Assembly (NCBI RefSeq): GCF_003428625.2
Contig: NZ_QVQT02000001.1
Location: 558,001 to 622,000 of the forward strand
Direction of reading: 5' to 3'
DNA: 64,000 nucleotides
From: Paracidobacterium acidisoli
Lineage (GTDB): Bacteria; Acidobacteriota; Terriglobia; Terriglobales; Acidobacteriaceae
Numbering within the stretch: position 1 is the first letter of the stretch; each line of letters starts with the position of its first letter. Of the stretch, positions 40,910-49,111 are shown piece by piece. The notes beneath the pieces are model-generated. The model was given only the letters and a program-made list of their open reading frames with translations. It was not told the DNA's origin and ran no database searches. The translations under genes were made by a program, and so were the position numbers.

Positions 40910-41698
40910 CTACTCTGTCAGACGAAAGATTCCCGGCAGCACCTCGCCGGCCTTGCCCAATACCACCCGCGTGAATGCGGGAGCGTTCAGCGGAGCCTCC
41001 GGGCCGATGTAATACGCTCGCACGCTGCCCGGTGCAGCCGTGTTGCGCCTCGCCGCCCAGTGAACGAAATTTGCGGCGGGATAGACATTCCCCGACGTGC
41101 CGACGACCAGCATCACGGTGCAGCGGTCGATCTCCGCGGTGATGCGGTCCATCTCCAGCGGAACCTCGCCGAACCAGACGATATGCGGGCGGATGCGTCC
41201 GCCGCAGGCGCAGCGGGCAAAGGACGCTGCGGACTCGTACAGCGTTTCGTCGGCAAAGGGAGGCTGCGCGCAGGAGAACCCTGCCGATCCCTGCACCGGA
41301 TCGTGAAACTCGCAGCGCGAGCGGAAGAGCTCGCCGTGCATGTGCAGCAGCCGCTCCGAACCGGCACGCTCATGCAGGTTGTCGACGTTCTGCGTGCAGA
41401 GAAAAAAGCGATCGCCGATCGCATGCTCCAGCTCCGCGAGAGCGCGATGCGCGGGATTCGGCTGTGCGGCCTGAGCATCGCGGCGGCGCATGCTGTAAAA
41501 GTGCCACACGCGTTCCGCGTCTTCTTCCCACGCCTCGGGCGTTGCCACCTCTTCCACGCGATAGCCATGCCAGAGTCCGCCATTGTCGCGAAAGGTGGGA
41601 ATGCCGCTCTCCGCGCTCACGCCCGCGCCGGTGAGCACAAAGACGCGGTCTGTGGGATGAATTGAAATCAGCTCGCCGGTCGTCCGGTTTTCAGGCAT
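40910..41698 (-). CDS. cobB: NAD-dependent protein deacylase, sirtuin (class III-like)
   Basis: 262 residues. The NAD-binding motif VFVLTGAGVSAESGIPTFRD, the TQNVDNLHERAG helix, the catalytic histidine in LHMHGELF and a split zinc site (SRCEFH, GFSC, FARCACGG) are all present. RPHIVWFGEVP and MLVVGTSGNVYPAA complete the fold. FYSMRRR fits the YXXR pattern of class III sirtuins, which favours removal of succinyl or malonyl groups. The start overlaps the end of the multicopper oxidase gene by eight bases, so translation is probably coupled. That pairing is unusual. Confidence 0.9.
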   Translation of the reverse strand: MPENRTTGELISIHPTDRVFVLTGAGVSAESGIPTFRDNGGLWHGYRVEEVATPEAWEEDAERVWHFYSMRRRDAQAAQPNPAHRALAELEHAIGDRFFLCTQNVDNLHERAGSERLLHMHGELFRSRCEFHDPVQGSAGFSCAQPPFADETLYESAASFARCACGGRIRPHIVWFGEVPLEMDRITAEIDRCTVMLVVGTSGNVYPAANFVHWAARRNTAAPGSVRAYYIGPEAPLNAPAFTRVVLGKAGEVLPGIFRLTE

Positions 41699-43055
41699 AA
41701 CGAAATAACATCATGAATCCGAAATCCATGTGCGTCTGCTGATGGCAATGAAAGAGCGTCGGCCCCGGATGCGAGGCCGTGAAGTCGATCTCTGCCGTCG
41801 TATTGGCATCGACCACTACCACATCCTTGCGCAGTCCTGAGAGCGGTTTGCCGCCGAGACCGGCCACTTCGAAGGTGTGACGATGCAGGTGCACCGGGTG
41901 GTCGTCGGTGCTCTTGTTCGTCATCACCAGACGGTAGCGTTTGCCGGTCACGAGCGTCACCGCATCCGTCTTCGGCCACGATTTGCCGTTGATCGTCCAC
42001 GCGTCGAATTCACCGTGACCCTCAAACTTCGACTCGAAGAGAAGCGGGATGCGCTCGTCGGGAGTCACTGAGGACGCGGAAGGCATGGCAAAGCGCCGAT
42101 AGTCCCACTCGGTCTCCGGAGGCTCGATCCAGCGCGGCACGCCCTGCTGCCCTTCGTACTCGATGACGATGCCCATGCCGGCTTTGCGGATTTCGCTGCG
42201 CGTCTCGCCGAAGATCCAGACGCCGGGGCGGTTCATCGTGACAAGAATATCCAGCCGCTCGGCGGGAGCAAGACGCACCGCGGGCATCGTTGCCGGACGC
42301 GGCACAGCATTGCCGTCCGCTGCAATCACCGTGCACGCATGCCCCGCGAGCGCAAGCCAGTGTGTCACCGTGGCGCTGGCATTCAGCACGTGAAACAGCA
42401 CGCGCTGGCCCGCGCGCACGCGGATCGGATCGCCGTGGCCGAGCATGCGGTCATTGATGGTGGAGTAGTCGTAGGCCGCATCCATCGATGCGTCCGCGCC
42501 TCCGCCCATGTATGCGTTCCAGTCGTGCAGGGTAAGAAAGATCTCCTGATCGTATGCGCCCGGATTCTCCCGCGGCTCGACATAAAAGCAGCCGAACTGG
42601 CCGCTGTACAGACCCTTCTTCAGATCGTGTCCGGCATAGGTATGCGTGTGATACCAGCGGAAGCCGGCCGGCTGCGGCGTGAACGCATAGCGCAGCGTCG
42701 CGCCGGCAGCGATCATCGGCGAGCCCTCTTCCATGGCGCCGTCCATCTGCGATGTAAGCCACTGGCCATGCCAGTGCACGATCTCCGGCGAATCGCTGCG
42801 ATTGGTCACGTCGACAGCGATGGGCTTGCCCTCGGGCCAGCGAATCAGCGGCCCAGGCACGCGGCCGTTGTAGGCGACGGTATGCACCACTTTGCCGGGA
42901 GCGATCTCCAGCGCCAGCGGCGCAATCTCAAGATGAAGATCGGCAGGCGCATTGGCCACGTCTACGGCAGGACGATCTGCCGCAACTGCGGGCACGGCAA
43001 AACGGTCCGCGGCCAGCGCGGCTCCGGCAAGCTGAAGGAAACGGCGGCGATTCAT
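41691..43055 (-). CDS. Tat-exported multicopper oxidase
   Basis: 454 residues from the ATG at 43055, with GAGGATGACAGG upstream. The N-terminus MNRRRFLQLAGAALA is a twin-arginine signal. The copper ligands appear in order: IVHWHGQ, WYHTHTY, DHPVHLHRHTF and the type 1/3 site LFHCHQQTHMDFGFM. This is a three-cupredoxin laccase/CueO-like enzyme of the periplasm, which oxidises Cu(I) or phenols and reduces oxygen to water. It lies between an outer-membrane protein gene and the sirtuin gene, all in one operon. The methionine-rich insert of CueO was not seen, so the substrate is open. Confidence 0.9.
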   Translation of the reverse strand: MNRRRFLQLAGAALAADRFAVPAVAADRPAVDVANAPADLHLEIAPLALEIAPGKVVHTVAYNGRVPGPLIRWPEGKPIAVDVTNRSDSPEIVHWHGQWLTSQMDGAMEEGSPMIAAGATLRYAFTPQPAGFRWYHTHTYAGHDLKKGLYSGQFGCFYVEPRENPGAYDQEIFLTLHDWNAYMGGGADASMDAAYDYSTINDRMLGHGDPIRVRAGQRVLFHVLNASATVTHWLALAGHACTVIAADGNAVPRPATMPAVRLAPAERLDILVTMNRPGVWIFGETRSEIRKAGMGIVIEYEGQQGVPRWIEPPETEWDYRRFAMPSASSVTPDERIPLLFESKFEGHGEFDAWTINGKSWPKTDAVTLVTGKRYRLVMTNKSTDDHPVHLHRHTFEVAGLGGKPLSGLRKDVVVVDANTTAEIDFTASHPGPTLFHCHQQTHMDFGFMMLFRYA

Positions 43056-43065
43056 CCTGTCATCC

Positions 43066-43965
43066 TCACATGCTGTCGGAGCTGCCGGCGCGATGGTGCG
43101 TCCAGTCGAAGCGGCGTCCCAGAATCCCTTTGACGATGAAGTGATCGGTACCCGCGGTGGGACCGACGCCCACGCCGAAGTTGATCTCCCACTTCGGCGA
43201 AACATTCAGGTCGATCGCCGGAAAAAACTGCTGCTGCTGATTGTGCAGCGTGTCGGGATCGAAGAGCTTTCCGTAATCCGCATAATACTCAAGGCCGCCG
43301 GAGATGTACTTGTTGAAGTCGTAGCTGACCTTGGCATTCGGCGCGAAGGTCACGCCCTGGTTTACGCTCTGCCCGTGAAAGGACCGGTCGAGCGCCGGAT
43401 TGAATGCCAGATACCAGCGCCCGATCTGCTTGTCGACGATGGGGCGAATCTCCAGCGTCCAGGTATCGGTCGCAAAGACGCGCCGCTGGTAGCCGAACTC
43501 GATCGAGAGGCTTGCGCCCACCGGCCAGTGCCAGCTGTCAGGAGCGCGCACGCGCGGACGGATGTGATCGCCCACCCACTGCAACCCCTGGCCGCTGCGC
43601 TCGCTGGTAAAGATGTAGAAGCCCACCTCTGACCAGTTGTTGATGCCGTTGGTAATTTCGATGGTTTCATGCTCGGCATGGTTCGTGGGATAGAGCCGGT
43701 CGGCCGCATAGATCGAGCCGGGCAGAGGCTTTGAGCCATCCGCGGTGAAGTTGCTGTGCAGCTCGACCATCGTGCTCTTCGGAGCGACCGTATCGGCGCC
43801 GTAGACCTGAATCTCGTAGTTATCCTGGGCTGAGGCAAACTGCCGCGCAAAGATCAGCACCAGCAGGATCAGAAGACTTCTCCAGACGATCCGCTGCAAA
43901 TCCAAACGGTAAACTCCCTGACTGAATTCAGATACGAGAAACGTTTCCGGCCGTAAGGCAAGCAT
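43066..43965 (-). CDS. Outer-membrane beta-barrel-like protein
   Basis: 299 residues as written from the ATG at 43965. A TTG at 43905 with GGGAG eight bases upstream would give a cleaner signal peptide (hydrophobic RSLLILLVLIFARQFASAQ). The mature sequence is aromatic-rich and alternating, for example NNWSEVGFYIFTSE, SLSIEFGYQRR, TWTLEIRPIVD, SYDFNKYISGGLEYYADYG and WEINFGVGVGP, as in small porin-like barrels. No specific family is recognised. Ten bases separate it from the multicopper oxidase gene, so it may form a passage or sensor for the same stress. Confidence 0.65.
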   Translation of the reverse strand: MLALRPETFLVSEFSQGVYRLDLQRIVWRSLLILLVLIFARQFASAQDNYEIQVYGADTVAPKSTMVELHSNFTADGSKPLPGSIYAADRLYPTNHAEHETIEITNGINNWSEVGFYIFTSERSGQGLQWVGDHIRPRVRAPDSWHWPVGASLSIEFGYQRRVFATDTWTLEIRPIVDKQIGRWYLAFNPALDRSFHGQSVNQGVTFAPNAKVSYDFNKYISGGLEYYADYGKLFDPDTLHNQQQQFFPAIDLNVSPKWEINFGVGVGPTAGTDHFIVKGILGRRFDWTHHRAGSSDSM

Positions 43966-44044: not shown

Positions 44045-44635
44045 ATGCTTCCTTCAGAAGACCGCCGGCTGGTGCAGATTGTGGACGCGGCCGCAGCCGA
44101 TGCGGCGCGCCGGGCCGGGCACTGGCTGAAGTGCCGTCCCGGATGCACGCAGTGCTGTGTCGGCGTCTTCGCCATCAGCCGGCTTGATGCGGCGCGTCTG
44201 CGGCAGGGACTGTCCGAACTTGAACACTCCGATTCGGAGCGGGCAAACGCCGTGCGGCTTCGCGCTCGGGATTTCGTCAGGCGTTACACCTCGTCGTTTC
44301 CAGGAGATGCGAAGTCCGGCATTCTTGACGAGGCGCGTGCGGAAGAGTTCGAGGACTTTGCGAATGACGAGCCCTGCGCGGCGCTCGATCCGGCGACAGG
44401 ATTATGCGATCTGTATGCGGCGCGGCCGGTCACGTGCCGTGTCTTTGGCCCGGCGCTTCGCACCGCAGAGGGCATTGGCGTGTGCGAGCTGTGCTTTACG
44501 GGAGCAACGGACGCGGAGATTGCCGCCTGCGAAGTGCATCTGGACTGCGATGATCTCGAATCGCGGCTGAACGGGCAGGTGGAAGCAGCGGAAGATGTTA
44601 CAGGCAACACGCTCGTGGCGTTTGCGCTGATTTAA
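44045..44635 (+). CDS. YkgJ-family cysteine-cluster protein
   Basis: 196 residues from the ATG at 44045 with GGAGAC just upstream. CRPGCTQCCVGVFAIS carries the CXXXCXXCC cluster. DEPCAALDPATGLCDLYAARPVTCRVFGP supplies the further cysteines that, in this family, bind zinc or an iron-sulphur cluster. Members are soluble and of unclear function, with some linked to metal or flagellin modification. It lies upstream of the bufferin-like operon on the same strand, separated from it by 322 bases. Confidence 0.82.
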   Translation: MLPSEDRRLVQIVDAAAADAARRAGHWLKCRPGCTQCCVGVFAISRLDAARLRQGLSELEHSDSERANAVRLRARDFVRRYTSSFPGDAKSGILDEARAEEFEDFANDEPCAALDPATGLCDLYAARPVTCRVFGPALRTAEGIGVCELCFTGATDAEIAACEVHLDCDDLESRLNGQVEAAEDVTGNTLVAFALI

Positions 44636-44957
44636 AAGCGGACACTGTCTGAAATCGGACAGCGCGTGGCGATGCGCAATCAAAAAAAGGGCGGAACAGC
44701 AGGGGGCTGCTCCGCCAGCTACCAGTCAATTGCGTACACCGGGTTGAAGGTAGGTACGCCTTCTCAAGAACGGCTGCAACCGCCTTTCGGATCTGTTCAG
44801 TATGCGAAAAAAATCTCTTGTACAGCGGGCGAAATTTGCGCCGGGTCTGCTGTAACCTTATCTGCGCTGCTGCACTCTGATGCAGTAGACGCAGGTCTCC
44901 CGCCGGGCGCGAGAGCGCATGGTTCTGGATCTGCAAATACATGGAGGAATGACCAAC
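44636..44957. other. Leader and promoter region of the metallophore operon
   Basis: This gap holds a minus-strand terminator (44681-44716), a small hairpin (CTGTC/GACAG near 44645-44662) and a TGTAACC element at 44851-44857. The last could be the -35 of an ECF promoter, but no convincing -10 follows at 16-17 bases. GGAGGA at 44943 is the Shine-Dalgarno sequence for the precursor gene. No other gene was recognised. Confidence 0.4.
44681..44716 (-). terminator. Orphan intrinsic terminator on the minus strand
   Basis: GGCGGA-CAGC and GCTG-TCCGCC form a ten-pair stem with one unpaired base on each side and a short G-rich loop. On the minus strand it is followed by CTTTTTTTG. No minus-strand gene ends here. 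Confidence 0.65.
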
Positions 44958-45254
44958 ATGAAATATTCGATGAAGACCCTGATGGTTGCCGCAGCGGTAT
45001 CTGGTCTGTTCAGTGGCGTGACCATGACCCAGGCAGCAACCACCTCCGCCAGCACCACCACGGCGGTCACGGCGGGCAAAGCGTCGTTCGGCAGCGCTTC
45101 GCTCATGGCCAAGAAAGCCAAGCATGCCTGTAAAGGCCAAAACGATTGCAAAGGCCAGGGCGGCTGCAAGAGCAGTGACAATGGCTGCAAGGGCAAGAAC
45201 AGCTGCAAGGGCAAGGGCGGCTGCGCCACTGACGGCTCCAAGATGCCTTCGTAG
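44958..45254 (+). CDS. Bufferin/HvfA-like RiPP metallophore precursor
   Basis: 98 residues from the ATG at 44958. A signal peptide ends near TMTQA (residue 26), then comes a Ser/Thr/Ala linker (27-52) and a basic cysteine-rich tail. Six cysteines at 58, 64, 70, 77, 83 and 89 are spaced 6-6-7-6-6, mostly as CKGxxx. The tail is a tandem duplication: ACKGQNDCKGQGGC matches GCKGKNSCKGKGGC. The next two genes are the MNIO enzyme and DUF2063 partner that modify cysteines in such precursors, so this is the likely substrate, acting in the periplasm to bind copper or another soft metal. The canonical EGKCG and DUF2282 motifs are absent. Confidence 0.78.
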   Translation: MKYSMKTLMVAAAVSGLFSGVTMTQAATTSASTTTAVTAGKASFGSASLMAKKAKHACKGQNDCKGQGGCKSSDNGCKGKNSCKGKGGCATDGSKMPS

Positions 45255-45284
45255 TTCGGATGTTCCTGTAGTTCACTCCTTTCA

Positions 45285-45314
45285 GAAAGGGTCACAGCCC
45301 ATCGTGGCCCTTTC
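45285..45314 (+). other. Intergenic hairpin between precursor and MNIO genes
   Basis: GAAAGGGTCAC and GTGGCCCTTTC pair over eleven positions (one U-G) with an eight-base loop. No T run follows. It probably protects or trims the precursor message, or lowers read-through, so that precursor is made in excess of enzyme. Confidence 0.5.
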
Positions 45315-45337
45315 GAATCCCGCCTGCGAGGTCTGCT

Positions 45338-46225
45338 GTGCCTGCAAATCGCTTCAACGGTTTTACCGAGTACGGTGTCGGAATCGGTCTTCGCGTTCCA
45401 CACTATCAGCACATTCTCTCGAGAAAGCCGGTCGTGGACTGGTTTGAGATCATCTCGGAAAACTACATGATCGATGGCGGACGGCCGCTCGAAATACTCG
45501 ACAGGATTCTTGAGCAGTATCGCGTCGTGCAGCACGGCGTCTCGATGTACTTCGGCTCCGCCGATCCGCTGAACCGCGAACACCTGAAGCGCCTGAAGCA
45601 GCTTGTGCGGCGCACGAAGACGCCGTGGCTGAGCGACCATCTCTGCTGGGGATCGGTCGACGGACGCTACACGCACGACCTTCTGCCCATGCCCTATACA
45701 TGGGAGGCGGTGAAGGTGACGGCAGAGAAGATCCGCCAGGTGCAGGATTTCACCGAAGTTCCGGTCGTCGTCGAGAATGTCTCCAGCTACGCCGAGTTTC
45801 ATGTCTCAGAGATGACGGAGTGGGAGTTTCTGACCGAAGTGGTTGAGGCCGCCGACTGCGGCATCCTGCTCGACGTGAACAACATCTACGTCTCCTCGCA
45901 GAATCACAGCTTCGATCCGTTCACGTATGTGAACCACGTTCCGGCCGAGCGCGTCGCGCAGATTCACATCGCCGGACACAGCAAATTCGAGAAGTACATC
46001 CTCGACACGCACGATCATCCCGTGCTGCCTGCGGTGTGGAAGCTCTATGCCCGCGCCATCGAGCGCTGCGGCCCGACCGCCACTCTGCTCGAGTGGGACG
46101 ACAGGATTCCCAGCTTTGACGAAGTACATGACGAAGCGCTGAAGGCGAATGAATTTCTGCAGGCCGTCACTCCGAAAGCAAAGGCCGATGCGGCGCAGCC
46201 TGAGCTGCAGGGAGCCGCGCGATGA
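45338..46225 (+). CDS. bufB: MNIO-family RiPP-modifying enzyme (DUF692)
   Basis: 295 residues with a GTG start preceded by GAGGT. It is a TIM-barrel multinuclear non-haem iron oxygenase. Likely metal ligands are His66 in VVQHGVS, His101 in LSDHLCWGS, Glu146 in VVENVSSY, Asp179 in LLDVNNIYV, His210 and His214 in QIHIAGH, Asp223/His225 in DTHDHP and Glu252 in LLEWDD. Members turn precursor cysteines into oxazolone/thioamide or thiooxazole groups. It lies 83 bases after the precursor gene and overlaps the partner gene by four bases (ATGA), so the two are translated together. Confidence 0.92.
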   Translation: MPANRFNGFTEYGVGIGLRVPHYQHILSRKPVVDWFEIISENYMIDGGRPLEILDRILEQYRVVQHGVSMYFGSADPLNREHLKRLKQLVRRTKTPWLSDHLCWGSVDGRYTHDLLPMPYTWEAVKVTAEKIRQVQDFTEVPVVVENVSSYAEFHVSEMTEWEFLTEVVEAADCGILLDVNNIYVSSQNHSFDPFTYVNHVPAERVAQIHIAGHSKFEKYILDTHDHPVLPAVWKLYARAIERCGPTATLLEWDDRIPSFDEVHDEALKANEFLQAVTPKAKADAAQPELQGAAR

Positions 46226-47097
46226 GCCAGCTGCTCGATATTCAGCGCCGCATGGCCGCGGCGGTGATGCACCCTCTGACCAAAGCCGAAACGATGCCGC
46301 GCCGCCGGAGCGACGGTAAACTCAACAACGCTGAAGCCGAGAGCTTCATTAAGCCGAATGACCGGCTCACCTCCTTCGAGCGGCTGGAGATTTACAACCG
46401 CCAGTACTGGTTCCGGCTCTACGACTCCTTCGAGGACGACTTCCCCGGCCTGCTCGCCATCGTGGGCCGAGCGAAGTTCGATGCGCTGATGCGCGCTTAC
46501 CTCACCGAGCGTCCTTCGGAGTCCTTCACGCTGCGCAACCTCGGATCGCACCTCGAAGCCTGGCTCGGCGCTCATCCGGAGATGACCGCGCCGCACACCG
46601 TGCTCGCGCTCGACATGGCGCGGCTGGAGTGGGCGCACATCGAGGCCTTCGACTCGGCGGCCGATCCATTGCTGAACGAAGATGAGCTGATCGCGATCAA
46701 CGAAAACTCGCAGCTCCGCCTGCAGCCGTATCTGCGCCTGCTTTCTCTGCAGTATCCGGTGGACGATCTGCTGATCGATCTGCGCAATGAAGACGGCAGC
46801 AGCGACTCATCGAGCAACAACGCCAGCATTGCGCGCAGACGGAAGCACGTCCGGCGTGTGGCGGCCGTGGCTCCGGAACAGATCTGGCTGGCCGTTCATC
46901 GTCATCAGAACTCCGTGTATTACAAGCGGCTGCAGCGGGAGGAGTATCGCCTGCTCGAATCGCTGCTGAACGGCAGACCGCTCGGCGAAGCGCTCGACTA
47001 CGCCTTCACGGGCAGCGAGATTCCCGAAGAGGAGCGCAGCTCCTTCCTGCAGCAGGCCTTTTCCACCTGGGCCGTGCTCGGCTGGTTTACAAAATAA
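46222..47097 (+). CDS. bufC: DUF2063 partner protein of the MNIO enzyme
   Basis: 291 residues. The N-terminal DUF2063 domain (about 8-110) contains LTSFERLEIYNRQYWFRLYDSFEDDFPGL and the acidic FDALMRAYLTERPSESFTLRNLG. The C-terminal domain resembles the helper domain of MbnC/BufC proteins. In known systems it delivers the precursor to the MNIO enzyme in the cytoplasm. It overlaps bufB by four bases. A Ser/Asn-rich loop (EDGSSDSSSNNAS) near residue 195 looks like a flexible insertion. Confidence 0.9.
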   Translation: MSQLLDIQRRMAAAVMHPLTKAETMPRRRSDGKLNNAEAESFIKPNDRLTSFERLEIYNRQYWFRLYDSFEDDFPGLLAIVGRAKFDALMRAYLTERPSESFTLRNLGSHLEAWLGAHPEMTAPHTVLALDMARLEWAHIEAFDSAADPLLNEDELIAINENSQLRLQPYLRLLSLQYPVDDLLIDLRNEDGSSDSSSNNASIARRRKHVRRVAAVAPEQIWLAVHRHQNSVYYKRLQREEYRLLESLLNGRPLGEALDYAFTGSEIPEEERSSFLQQAFSTWAVLGWFTK

Positions 47098-47134
47098 GCG
47101 GCGCCTCTTCGCGAAGCAGAGAAAGGTACGTCTC

Positions 47135-47641
47135 ATGGGCAGTTCGTCTTCCTCCACAGCCGCATCGGACCGTTCGGGATTTGCCGGCAAAATCTCGTGC
47201 TGGTACTGCAGCTTCCTCAGCGCAACGGCGAAGCTGCGCTCTCCGTTTCTGCTCTTTGTGCGCCTTTACTGGGGATGGCAGTTCATTCAGACCGGCATCG
47301 GGCACCTGGGACACCTGACGCGCGTCACCAGCTTCTTCGCGAGCCTGGGACTTCCCTTCCCGCACTTCACCGCGGCCTTTGTCGGCACCATCGAGCTGGC
47401 GGGCGGCATTCTGCTGGTGCTTGGGCTGCTCACCCGCGTGACCGGTCTGGTGCTGACCGTCAATATGGTGATGGCCTATCTCACGGCGGACCGCGACGCC
47501 CTGCTCAGCTTTCTGAGCGATCCCGGCAAGTTCTACGAGGCCGATCCGTTTACCTTTCTGTTTGCGGCGCTGATCGTGCTGATCTTTGGCGCCGGCTTCT
47601 TCTCGCTCGACTACTGGCTCGCACACAGGAGCAGAAACTGA
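47135..47641 (+). CDS. DoxX-family membrane protein
   Basis: 168 residues with four hydrophobic helices and the DoxX pattern LFVRLYWGWQFIQTGIGHL, PFPHFTAAFVGTIELAGGILLVLGLLTRV. WYCS near the N-terminus adds two cysteines. DoxX proteins frequently accompany bufferin-type clusters, where the role is unproven, possibly redox or quinone-linked handling at the inner membrane. It lies 37 bases after bufC and just before the sigma factor gene. Confidence 0.87.
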   Translation: MGSSSSSTAASDRSGFAGKISCWYCSFLSATAKLRSPFLLFVRLYWGWQFIQTGIGHLGHLTRVTSFFASLGLPFPHFTAAFVGTIELAGGILLVLGLLTRVTGLVLTVNMVMAYLTADRDALLSFLSDPGKFYEADPFTFLFAALIVLIFGAGFFSLDYWLAHRSRN

Positions 47642-47684
47642 CAGCGCCGAAGGGAGATTCTCCCGTCGTGCTGCTGTCTCTTCG

Positions 47685-48338
47685 ATGATGATGACTGATT
47701 CCAGCATGGGGCTGGTCGCGGGCCATCCTGAGACGGAGCTGATCGCCTCCATCCTTGCCGGCGAGCGCGACAGGTTTCACGATCTGATCCGCCCCTATGA
47801 GCGGCGGATTTATCTGACGGCGTTTTCCGTCGTGAAGAACGAGGCGGAGGCGGAAGACATTGTGCAGGAGGCCGTCCTGCGCGCCTATCGCAAGCTGGCC
47901 AGCTTTCGCGGCGAATCGAAGTTCGGCACCTGGCTTACCGCCATCACGCTGAATGAGGCCCGGCTGCGGCTGCGCAGAAGCAAAAGCGCGCTCACCGACT
48001 CGCTCGACGAAAGAACAGAAGACGGCGCGGAGGTGACGCCCGCCGTTCTGACCGACTGGCGCGAGGTGCCGCTGGCTGCGCTGGAGCGCGGCGAGATTCG
48101 CCTGCTGCTGCAGGAGGCCATCGCCTCGCTGCCCGAGACCTTTCGCGAGGTCGTGATCCTCCGCGATATGGAAGAGATGAACGTCAGCGAAACGGCGCAG
48201 GCTCTGGGGATCTCCATCTCCCTGGTCAAGGTTCGCCTGCACCGCGCAAGGCTGATGCTGCAGAAGATTCTCGTTCCAAAGCTGCGCGCAGCCATCAAAC
48301 CGGAGCGACGCTCGCGCTGGAGGTGGCCATGGTCCTGA
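47685..48338 (+). CDS. ECF-type RNA polymerase sigma factor
   Basis: 217 residues from the ATG at 47685, one of three adjacent ATG choices. Region 2 is VKNEAEAEDIVQEAVLRAYRKLASFRGESKFGTWL. Region 4 is LPETFREVVILRDMEEMNVSETAQALGISISLVKVRLHRARLML. There is a long linker with acidic residues in between. It probably directs transcription of the metallophore operon, as ECF factors do in related clusters of Proteobacteria. It overlaps the anti-sigma gene by 10 bases. Confidence 0.9.
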   Translation: MMMTDSSMGLVAGHPETELIASILAGERDRFHDLIRPYERRIYLTAFSVVKNEAEAEDIVQEAVLRAYRKLASFRGESKFGTWLTAITLNEARLRLRRSKSALTDSLDERTEDGAEVTPAVLTDWREVPLAALERGEIRLLLQEAIASLPETFREVVILRDMEEMNVSETAQALGISISLVKVRLHRARLMLQKILVPKLRAAIKPERRSRWRWPWS

Positions 48339-48592
48339 ACTGCAGGCACGTGTGGGACCGCATCTCCGAATACATCGACGGCTCGCTCTCTCCCGAGGTG
48401 CGCGCCGACGTGGAGCACCACCTCGAAACCTGCGAGATCTGCTCGGCCGTGCTCGACTCGACGCGCAACGTGATCATCCTGATGGCCGACGATCGCGTCT
48501 TCGAGCTGCCGGTGGATTTCAGCCGCCGTCTGCATGCGCGTCTCGCTCTGGCCATCGCTGAAGAAGCTCCGGAGCAGCCCGCAGACGGCTGA
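48329..48592 (+). CDS. Zinc-finger (zf-HC2) anti-sigma factor
   Basis: 87 residues from the ATG at 48329 with GGAGG upstream. A GTG at 48323 would add two residues. The zf-HC2 motif is CRHVWDRISEYIDGSLSPEV, with HHLETCEIC supplying His31, Cys35 and Cys38. There is no transmembrane helix, so it is a soluble anti-sigma. The HX3CX2C site lets such proteins release the sigma factor on metal or thiol oxidation. Its position after the ECF gene makes it the cognate inhibitor. Confidence 0.87.
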   Translation: MVLNCRHVWDRISEYIDGSLSPEVRADVEHHLETCEICSAVLDSTRNVIILMADDRVFELPVDFSRRLHARLALAIAEEAPEQPADG

Positions 48593-48691
48593 TTCCGCCC
48601 GGCTTCGAATCGCGACTCCAGGAAGCTGTCCCGAAAGCATCGCAACCCCGGTCCGGAATGCGTGTTCACTTTCCCGTACCCTGGCATCCCA

Positions 48692-48697
48692 TACAAT
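48692..48697 (+). promoter_or_regulatory. Candidate -10 box before the YXWGXW gene
   Basis: TACAAT (five of six matches) lies 51 bases before the ATG. The -35 is poor (CTTTCC at 17 bases), so the call is tentative. Confidence 0.25.
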
Positions 48698-48747
48698 GTG
48701 GTGCCGGGAAAATTCGGGTCTGTTGTATGCGAAAGGAGCTTCAACAT

Positions 48748-49038
48748 ATGAAGAAATTTCTGCTGATGACCGTCGCTGCTGCTGTTCTCAGCACAAGCGC
48801 GGCATTTGCTCAGATCATCGTCAGGGTCGCGCCTCCCCCGCCGATCGTGGAGCATCACGAACATGAGCGGCGCGGCTATGTCTGGATTGACGGCTATCAC
48901 CGCTGGGATGGTCATCGGTATACCTGGGTTCACGGACGCTGGGATCGGCCGCCCCGTCCGGGCGCTGTCTGGATTCCCGGCCACTGGGATGCACGGCCCG
49001 GCGGCTATGCCTGGATTCCCGGACGCTGGCGCTACTAA
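48748..49038 (+). CDS. Secreted YXWGXW-repeat protein
   Basis: 96 residues with a signal peptide (MKKFLLMTVAAAVLSTSAAFAQ) and a mature part of repeated W-x-x-G-x-W units: YVWIDGYHRW, YTWVHGRW, AVWIPGHW and YAWIPGRW. The sequence is histidine- and arginine-rich and would bind metals or cell-wall components. AAAGGAG precedes the ATG. The family is common in Acidobacteria and its function is unknown. It follows the anti-sigma gene on the same strand and ends at a strong hairpin terminator. Confidence 0.85.
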   Translation: MKKFLLMTVAAAVLSTSAAFAQIIVRVAPPPPIVEHHEHERRGYVWIDGYHRWDGHRYTWVHGRWDRPPRPGAVWIPGHWDARPGGYAWIPGRWRY

Positions 49039-49111
49039 AGCAGTTCTCCTGATGCTGCAGAGTGACAGAACGGCTACTAACCCGCTCCGCAGATATGCCC
49101 ACGCATGAAAA

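Follow-up and report, generated by a model that had tools for sequence, protein, structure and literature searches.

Bufferin operons join a small cysteine-rich precursor to an MNIO (DUF692) enzyme and a DUF2063 partner. Of the kinds described in the papers cited throughout, the Buf2 clusters (Buf_6/12Cys, or BufA2, clusters, whose precursors have 6 or 12 Cys; Antoine et al. 2025, PMC12452194) are among the closest to the operon presented here. In that survey, as far as its available text goes, sigma factor and NrsF genes are tied to Buf1 and not to Buf2 clusters; its figure shows the major layouts only, so that rare ones may be missing. Here we describe six genes of Paracidobacterium acidisoli, in a stretch of 64,000 nucleotides that we call the window (contig NZ_QVQT02000001.1, positions 558,001 to 622,000 of the forward strand), which combine a Buf2-like operon with genes for an extracytoplasmic function (ECF) sigma factor and a zinc-binding anti-sigma factor. 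Their features, in window coordinates, are as follows.

44851..44881, + strand: putative ECF-type promoter, -35 TGTAACC at 44851-44857, 18-base spacer, -10 TCTGAT at 44876-44881
44958..45254, + strand: bufA, precursor of 98 aa with six Cys, below the NF050166 cut-off
45281..45317, + strand: stem-loop in the bufA-bufB spacer, judged by shuffle z scores
45338..46225, + strand: bufB, MNIO (DUF692) maturase of 295 aa with a GTG start (PF05114, NF050167, PDB sequence matches)
46222..47097, + strand: bufC, DUF2063 partner protein of 291 aa (PF09836; below the HvfC model cut-off)
47135..47641, + strand: doxX, DoxX-family membrane protein of 168 aa (PF07681; below the HvfX model cut-off)
47706..48338, + strand: ecf, ECF sigma factor of about 210 aa, the start at 47706 being likeliest and 47685-47691 possible
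48329..48592, + strand: zas, CHCC zinc-binding anti-sigma factor (zf-HC2) of 87 aa, with Cys5, His31, Cys35 and Cys38

We consider it probable, at roughly two chances in three, that this Buf2-like bufferin operon carries its own stress switch and is controlled by it, and that in this switch thiol stress releases the ECF sigma factor from the zinc anti-sigma factor. At rest zas would hold the sigma factor, as its family suggests, and a thiol-reactive stress in the cytoplasm, caused by oxidants or by thiophilic metals (copper, for instance), would oxidise or displace the Cys/His zinc site and free it. The freed sigma factor would transcribe bufABC-doxX-ecf-zas from a promoter of the form TGTAACC-N17/18-TCtaAc, predicted from promoter comparison and gene linkage, and since ecf and zas lie within the transcribed unit the loop would make its own sigma factor and inhibitor. 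To judge by characterised relatives, BufB and BufC would then convert the precursor Cys, most likely to 5-thiooxazoles, and the peptide, exported by its Sec signal, would act in the periplasm as a buffer for copper or metals like it.

ECF sigma factors beside or in control of MNIO/DUF2063/DoxX operons are found in Caulobacter (sigF-nrsF with Buf1; PMC3511200) and Cupriavidus (gigPABT-rpoQ-rsqA; PMC10304878, whose available passages do not demonstrate control of gig by RpoQ). The Caulobacter system differs in its membrane anti-sigma factor NrsF, with six transmembrane segments and periplasmic Cys, and in its DUF2282 precursors, and the RsqA of Cupriavidus is predicted to be membrane-bound, whereas zas is a CHCC protein without a transmembrane segment in an operon with a Buf2-like precursor. 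The nearest regulatory analogue that we found is RpoE2-HrsE of Haemophilus, with SigE of Neisseria (PMC7907618), where a small cytoplasmic zinc anti-sigma factor (ECF13-type) accompanies an ECF factor controlling a DoxX/periplasmic-protein/MNIO/DUF2063 operon; in that case a sigma gene near msrAB acts on the operon in trans, whereas the sigma and anti-sigma genes of the window are co-operonic. Control of an MNIO/DoxX operon by a zinc anti-sigma factor is thus already known, with another precursor, and what is new is the Buf2-like case, with a predicted promoter and a predicted sensor site. In searches of open-licence papers aimed at such cases we recognised, from titles, abstracts and passages, no acidobacterial bufferin case and none with a sigma/zinc-anti-sigma pair.

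Precursor, enzymes and their assignment

Profile searches against Pfam and NCBIfam were judged by the curated cut-offs. BufB passes both PF05114 (361 bits) and NF050167 (353 bits, cut-off 310), the only one of the four biosynthetic parts above an NCBIfam equivalog cut-off, and its sequence matches in the PDB include 3bww (E 1e-48), the DUF692 family protein of 8hci, 8hi7 and 8hi8, which we take to be TglH, and MbnB (7dz9). BufC passes PF09836 (DUF2063; 52.8 bits, E 5e-14), its C-terminal domain scores 16.4 bits with PF22106 (cut-off 27) and it has no PDB sequence match, while DoxX passes PF07681 (63.6 bits, E 3e-17). The corresponding Hvf models stay under their cut-offs, with 46 bits of 142 for BufC (NF050145, HvfC) and 58 of 80 for DoxX (NF050144, HvfX).

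The precursor has no Pfam match, and its sole NCBIfam match at E of 1 or less is NF050166 (BufA2), at 35.3 bits with a cut-off of 60; we therefore term it Buf2-like and leave strict Buf2 membership open. By inspection its N-terminus is hydrophobic and of Sec type, and its six Cys, arranged as CKGxxxCKGxGGCKxxDNGCKGKNSCKGKGGC, are kept across many relatives. A preliminary description of the locus had seen a bufferin/HvfA-like operon for a ribosomally synthesised and post-translationally modified peptide, with a precursor unlike the best studied ones. The likeness to bufferins stands, as do the operon's own ECF and zinc anti-sigma genes, and the likeness to HvfA does not: the precursor resembles the known six-Cys Buf2 kind. 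Membership of the HvfA/EGKCG oxazolin group was rejected, the precursor having CKGxxxCKGxGGC and not EGKCG repeats; the Haemophilus precursor is presumably of that EGKCG/oxazolin (HvfA) type. With the surveyed Buf2 clusters (PMC12452194) the operon shares the bufA-bufB-bufC order, a Sec-type six-Cys CKG-repeat precursor, a bufferin-type MNIO, the DUF2063 partner and DoxX, and it differs from them in including an ECF factor and a soluble-looking zinc anti-sigma factor. Six-Cys DUF692/DUF2063 clusters are also described in Antarctic soil proteobacteria (PMC8692599). As to the product, the copper ligands of Buf1 bufferins are thiooxazoles derived from Cys, and all characterised MNIO-PME1 products bear a 5-thiooxazole according to PMC13097082, which proposes the name captophorins.

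The gene order on one strand given in the preliminary description is borne out by open reading frame coordinates, Pfam and NCBIfam, with bufA, bufB, bufC, doxX, ecf and zas following one another at 44958-48592, and so is the ATGA overlap of bufB and bufC (46222-46225). The 10-base overlap of the sigma and anti-sigma genes holds if zas starts at ATG 48329 and becomes 16 bases from GTG 48323. That three of the biosynthetic parts score below their equivalog cut-offs could also mean a decayed or non-functional copy, which we regard as most improbable, given six open reading frames, a BufB above its cut-off, six retained precursor Cys and orthologues conserved widely among relatives.

The spacer between bufA and bufB holds the stem-loop at 45281-45317, with a z score of -1.83 by dinucleotide shuffle. 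By the same shuffle z is -2 or lower in 14 of 19 chosen spacers, and it is below -2 in 108 of 126 by a simpler mononucleotide shuffle. Most relatives have a strong stem-loop here whose sequence varies by clade (L190, L020, L008, L014, L194, L195, L196 and others), possibly an attenuator or an mRNA-stability element.

A promoter motif shared by bufA and ecf

The window carries TGTAACC-N18-TCTGAT 107 bases before bufA, and a scan of 44600-49100 for sigma-70-like promoters gives a single match, within bufB rather than upstream of bufA. The words recur in relatives. Named relatives with flanking sequence were the best 80 of 575, and when these and the window are grouped by linkage, CTGTAAC and TGTAACC are the top 7-mers of the 350-base region before bufA, present in 11 and 10 of 18 loci with a same-strand ecf-zas pair and in 11 and 10 of 13 loci with the pair divergent; where the pair is missing, other 7-mers rank first (CTGTAACC, in 9 of 47). 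A tighter form of the motif has a spacer of 17 in 46 sites and of 18 in 11. The same -35 word, TGTAAC, as we read it, occurs in the mapped promoters of Sinorhizobium RpoE7 (ECF16), which serve a DUF692/DUF2063 operon (PMC6180224); the -10 there is GCGAAT by our own reading, and the likeness is one of promoter words.

We then compared motif and sigma factor over the family, where 125 of 130 loci were usable (L015, L198 and L261 were dropped when the script found no bufA, L029 and L237 for a short upstream region; genomes G223 and G374 contribute two loci each). A relaxed motif precedes bufA in 81 of the 93 loci from genomes with an ECF orthologue and in 4 of the 32 from genomes lacking one, compared with 2/93 and 0/32 for a reversed-pattern control and less than 1% for block shuffles. 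By genus, at least half of the loci carry it in 17 of 18 sigma-bearing genera and most loci do in 1 of 10 genera without the sigma factor, two genera falling on both sides. The sigma factor was scored as present at E of 1e-57 or less, a threshold set after the data were seen, and also in G095, G098, G245 and G209; the first scoring used seven candidates per genome and every candidate was scored in a second round for the genomes called absent. The loci scored absent include seven with a weak ECF match (about 1e-51 to 1e-56), all of which lack the motif. In one of these seven, L202, the weak ECF is about 3 kb from bufA, and two other loci scored absent, L189 and L213, carry a distantly related ECF-ZAS pair next to buf. 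Ten loci of the group g34, among the closest BufB relatives, have neither a sigma orthologue anywhere in the genome nor the motif. A natural contrast comes from relatives whose genomes share the core operon and lack both sigma factor and motif. Among the relatives are also named strains (Silvibacterium bohemicum, Edaphobacter aggregans and E. modestus), which makes the signal directly testable.

The motif also follows the sigma gene when it parts from bufA. In 30 of 37 divergent loci it is found no more than 800 bases ahead of ecf (reversed pattern, 2), and TGTAAC[CT]-N-TCTAAC/T precedes doxX in most divergent loci. It lies within 700 bases before ecf in 17 of 20 further loci (reversed, 0), 14 of which have ecf away from buf, some on separate draft contigs, and 6 of which are in genomes without a BufB match. 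Neither doxX nor ecf has a copy in front of it in the window, and a single promoter would therefore drive all six genes. A conserved motif before bufA and, when these are separated, before doxX-ecf or ecf supports the self-control suggested earlier, as a prediction from sequence. The arrangement itself is not due to chance, as 157 of the family's 398 genomes contain a BufB match (E of 0.001 or less, distant MNIOs included), and of 130 family loci, the window among them, 74 have an ECF orthologue linked to bufB (15 of 29 assessed by coordinates and 59 of 101 by sequence, two of the latter having no linkage score). Left out were the eight BufB places G182:C2, G292, G196, G002, G121, G130, G037 and G101, along with partial or distant BufB matches from the end of the list.

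It could be argued that the sigma and anti-sigma genes are passengers, an unrelated envelope-stress pair that merely lies downstream while bufA has another promoter, as 48 of the 78 named loci lack the pair in their flanks, some of them short, and 12 sigma-bearing loci lack the motif. We think this very improbable: the linkage survives several layouts (downstream, divergent, and upstream in L098), and the promoters of bufA and ecf have the motif in common, which is mostly absent from loci without the sigma factor.

Beyond these promoters there is little sign of other targets. In the genome of P. acidisoli the strict motif has 0 hits against 3 for the reversed pattern, and a relaxed form with spacers of 15-17, which cannot match the 18-base spacer of the window's own site, has 6 against 4, the level of chance; 18 genomes without the sigma factor give 7 strict hits against 12. 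As the strict motif is not enriched across genomes, only a small local regulon is supported, and a large one finds no support in the counts over 47 genomes. At L305, where ecf-zas lies away from buf, the motif precedes genes that Pfam identifies as DUF1223, AhpC/TSA, and cytochrome b561 with a molybdopterin oxidoreductase. L306 has look-alikes of these, and DUF1223 look-alikes occur at L295, L297 and L307 (Pfam was run on L305 only). These candidate second targets are in line with redox stress, and the small Caulobacter regulon likewise has a YedY-type molybdoenzyme (PMC3511200).

The anti-sigma factor and the likely signal

The ecf product exceeds the cut-offs of the Pfam sigma-70 region 2 and region 4 models (56.8 and 51.9 bits) and the zas product that of zf-HC2 (45.7 bits). 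Its Cys-x25-His-x3-Cys-x2-Cys has identical spacing in 80 of 80 zas orthologues (at least 52% identity), and all four residues are invariant in 31 of 31. A membrane helix is called above a threshold of mean hydropathy, and the best 19-residue mean in zas, 1.19, is too low for one. In the RsrA of Streptomyces the zinc ligands are Cys11, His37, Cys41 and Cys44, and Cys11 is required for redox sensing (PMC4960319). With RsrA zas shares this spacing of Cys and Hx3Cx2C, the lack of a transmembrane segment and a place next to its ECF factor; the targets differ, and since zas scores 34.9 bits with the RsrA equivalog TIGR03988 (cut-off 62.5) we do not name it an RsrA orthologue. From a CHCC site with RsrA spacing in a soluble-looking protein we infer thiol sensing in the cytoplasm, so that by this analogy cytoplasmic thiol stress, from oxidants or thiol-reactive metals, seems a likelier trigger than the membrane route of the Caulobacter NrsF. 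Control of the NrsF type (ECF16/Buf1) was rejected, since the anti-sigma factor is a zf-HC2 protein of 87 aa without a hydrophobic stretch and the precursor has no Pfam match. The proposed parallel with proteobacterial operons that answer to copper or gold does not carry over directly, because this anti-sigma factor is of the soluble-looking CHCC type with RsrA spacing, unlike the membrane NrsF of Buf1.

There are two rival accounts of the switch. In the first, zas would be a direct Cu(I) sensor in the cytoplasm whose zinc is displaced by copper, and the operon a dedicated copper-resistance loop. Binding of Cu(I) by a Cys3His site is chemically plausible. Protection against copper is described for characterised bufferins, and the gig operons respond to copper and gold (PMC10304878); nothing specific to copper appeared in what was examined, however, the spacing of the zas site is of the general redox type, and the motif near the solo ecf-zas of L305 and L306 precedes redox-type genes, and we find such a dedicated copper switch rather unlikely. 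In the second account the switch would answer to oxidants (disulfide or hypochlorite stress) with no primary role for metals, as an envelope-damage sigma factor resembling RpoE2 of Haemophilus, with the bufferin as one repair or scavenging output. The CHCC motif and the redox-type second targets agree with it, and RpoE2-HrsE of H. influenzae induces its DoxX/MNIO/DUF2063 operon on HOCl (PMC7907618). However, those second targets come from few relatives, other motif hits in the window's own genome are at chance level and the peptide's relatives bind copper; it is still unlikely in our view, if less so than the copper switch.

Several results weigh against the thiol-released, self-controlled operon that we favour. 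The association of motif and sigma factor has a Fisher p of 2e-14 that ignores descent, and the relaxed pattern behind it (spacer 13-18) was refined on genomes overlapping the test set. The motif is missing from 12 of the 93 sigma-bearing loci and occurs without a detected sigma orthologue in L238, L264, L267 and L269, and over 29 sigma-bearing genomes its strict form is not enriched (40 hits, 33 reversed). BufA, BufC and DoxX all fall under their NCBIfam cut-offs, and in the available text of the survey the modification of Buf2 is not identified, preliminary data being like Buf1 (PMC12452194). The AlphaFold model of zas, all-helical, is of modest quality (pLDDT 74, pTM 0.45), and its top Foldseek matches, RsiW (E 0.02) and RslA (E 0.6), are weak. 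The nearest solved sequence is also RsiW (E 5e-4; profile E 0.012), an HHCC protein that is said, in the passages available, not to sense disulfide stress, and zinc motifs of anti-sigma factors can be purely structural (PMC7406223).

With somewhat less than even confidence, we further suggest that the Acidobacteriaceae independently brought a Buf2-like bufferin and a cytoplasmic CHCC thiol sensor that governs it together in one self-amplifying operon. The metallophore would then be an output of a general regulon for thiol stress, from oxidants or thiophilic metals, rather than of periplasmic copper sensing, and the same sigma factor and promoter would have been carried along as the operon split, turned divergent and, in the lineages concerned, gained a four-Cys precursor.

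Layouts among relatives and neighbouring genes

Of the 80 named loci, 78 have a bufA match, as does the window. Over these 79 the ecf-zas pair (ECF at least 50% and ZAS at least 54% identical) lies on the same strand in 18, with the window, on the opposite strand in 13, and is missing from the flanks, some of which are short, in 48. ecf orthologues of 52-69% identity have a ZAS neighbour in 30 of 78 named loci, and in L098 the pair lies upstream of buf on the same strand. The divergent unit is usually doxX-ecf-zas, doxX typically staying with ecf. The precursor has four Cys in 31 of 37 divergent loci and six in 22 of 24 same-strand loci, so that many divergent relatives differ from the surveyed Buf2 clusters. 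Four-Cys divergent examples are L064, L073, L074, L076, L079, L082, L083, L091, L099, L101, L103 and similar loci. Two of the closest relatives, L005 (577-1500) and L040, have 0.9-1.3 kb between the bufA match and bufB downstream of it.

Outside the family, no ECF and ZAS pair lies within 6 kb of bufB in 40 chosen loci of other acidobacterial families (37 genomes, some limited by contig ends); three of the 40 (L175-L177) have a weak ECF match and no ZAS. L057, L059, L066 and L072 carry a different, more distant ECF-ZAS pair near buf (40-46% and 37-43% identical), with no motif and divergently in three of the four, which possibly reflects an independent pairing; L057, L066 and L072 are the loci L189, L202 and L213 above. 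BufB proteins 78-83% identical to that of the window occur on contigs labelled Verrucomicrobia, Spartobacteria, Opitutae, Methylacidimicrobium and Betaproteobacteria (L065, L084, L085, L105, L106 and L110, also L100), by transfer or through mislabelling or mis-binning.

Rfam gave nothing at the gathering score in 44600-49100. A downstream WXXGXW gene has no match in the available flanks of the 80 named loci and an upstream CxxCxxCC gene is matched in three (L041, L046 and L050), and by this comparison neither neighbour seems to belong to the operon unit. A multicopper oxidase gene lies at 41691-43205 on the opposite (-) strand, about 1.75 kb upstream of bufA.

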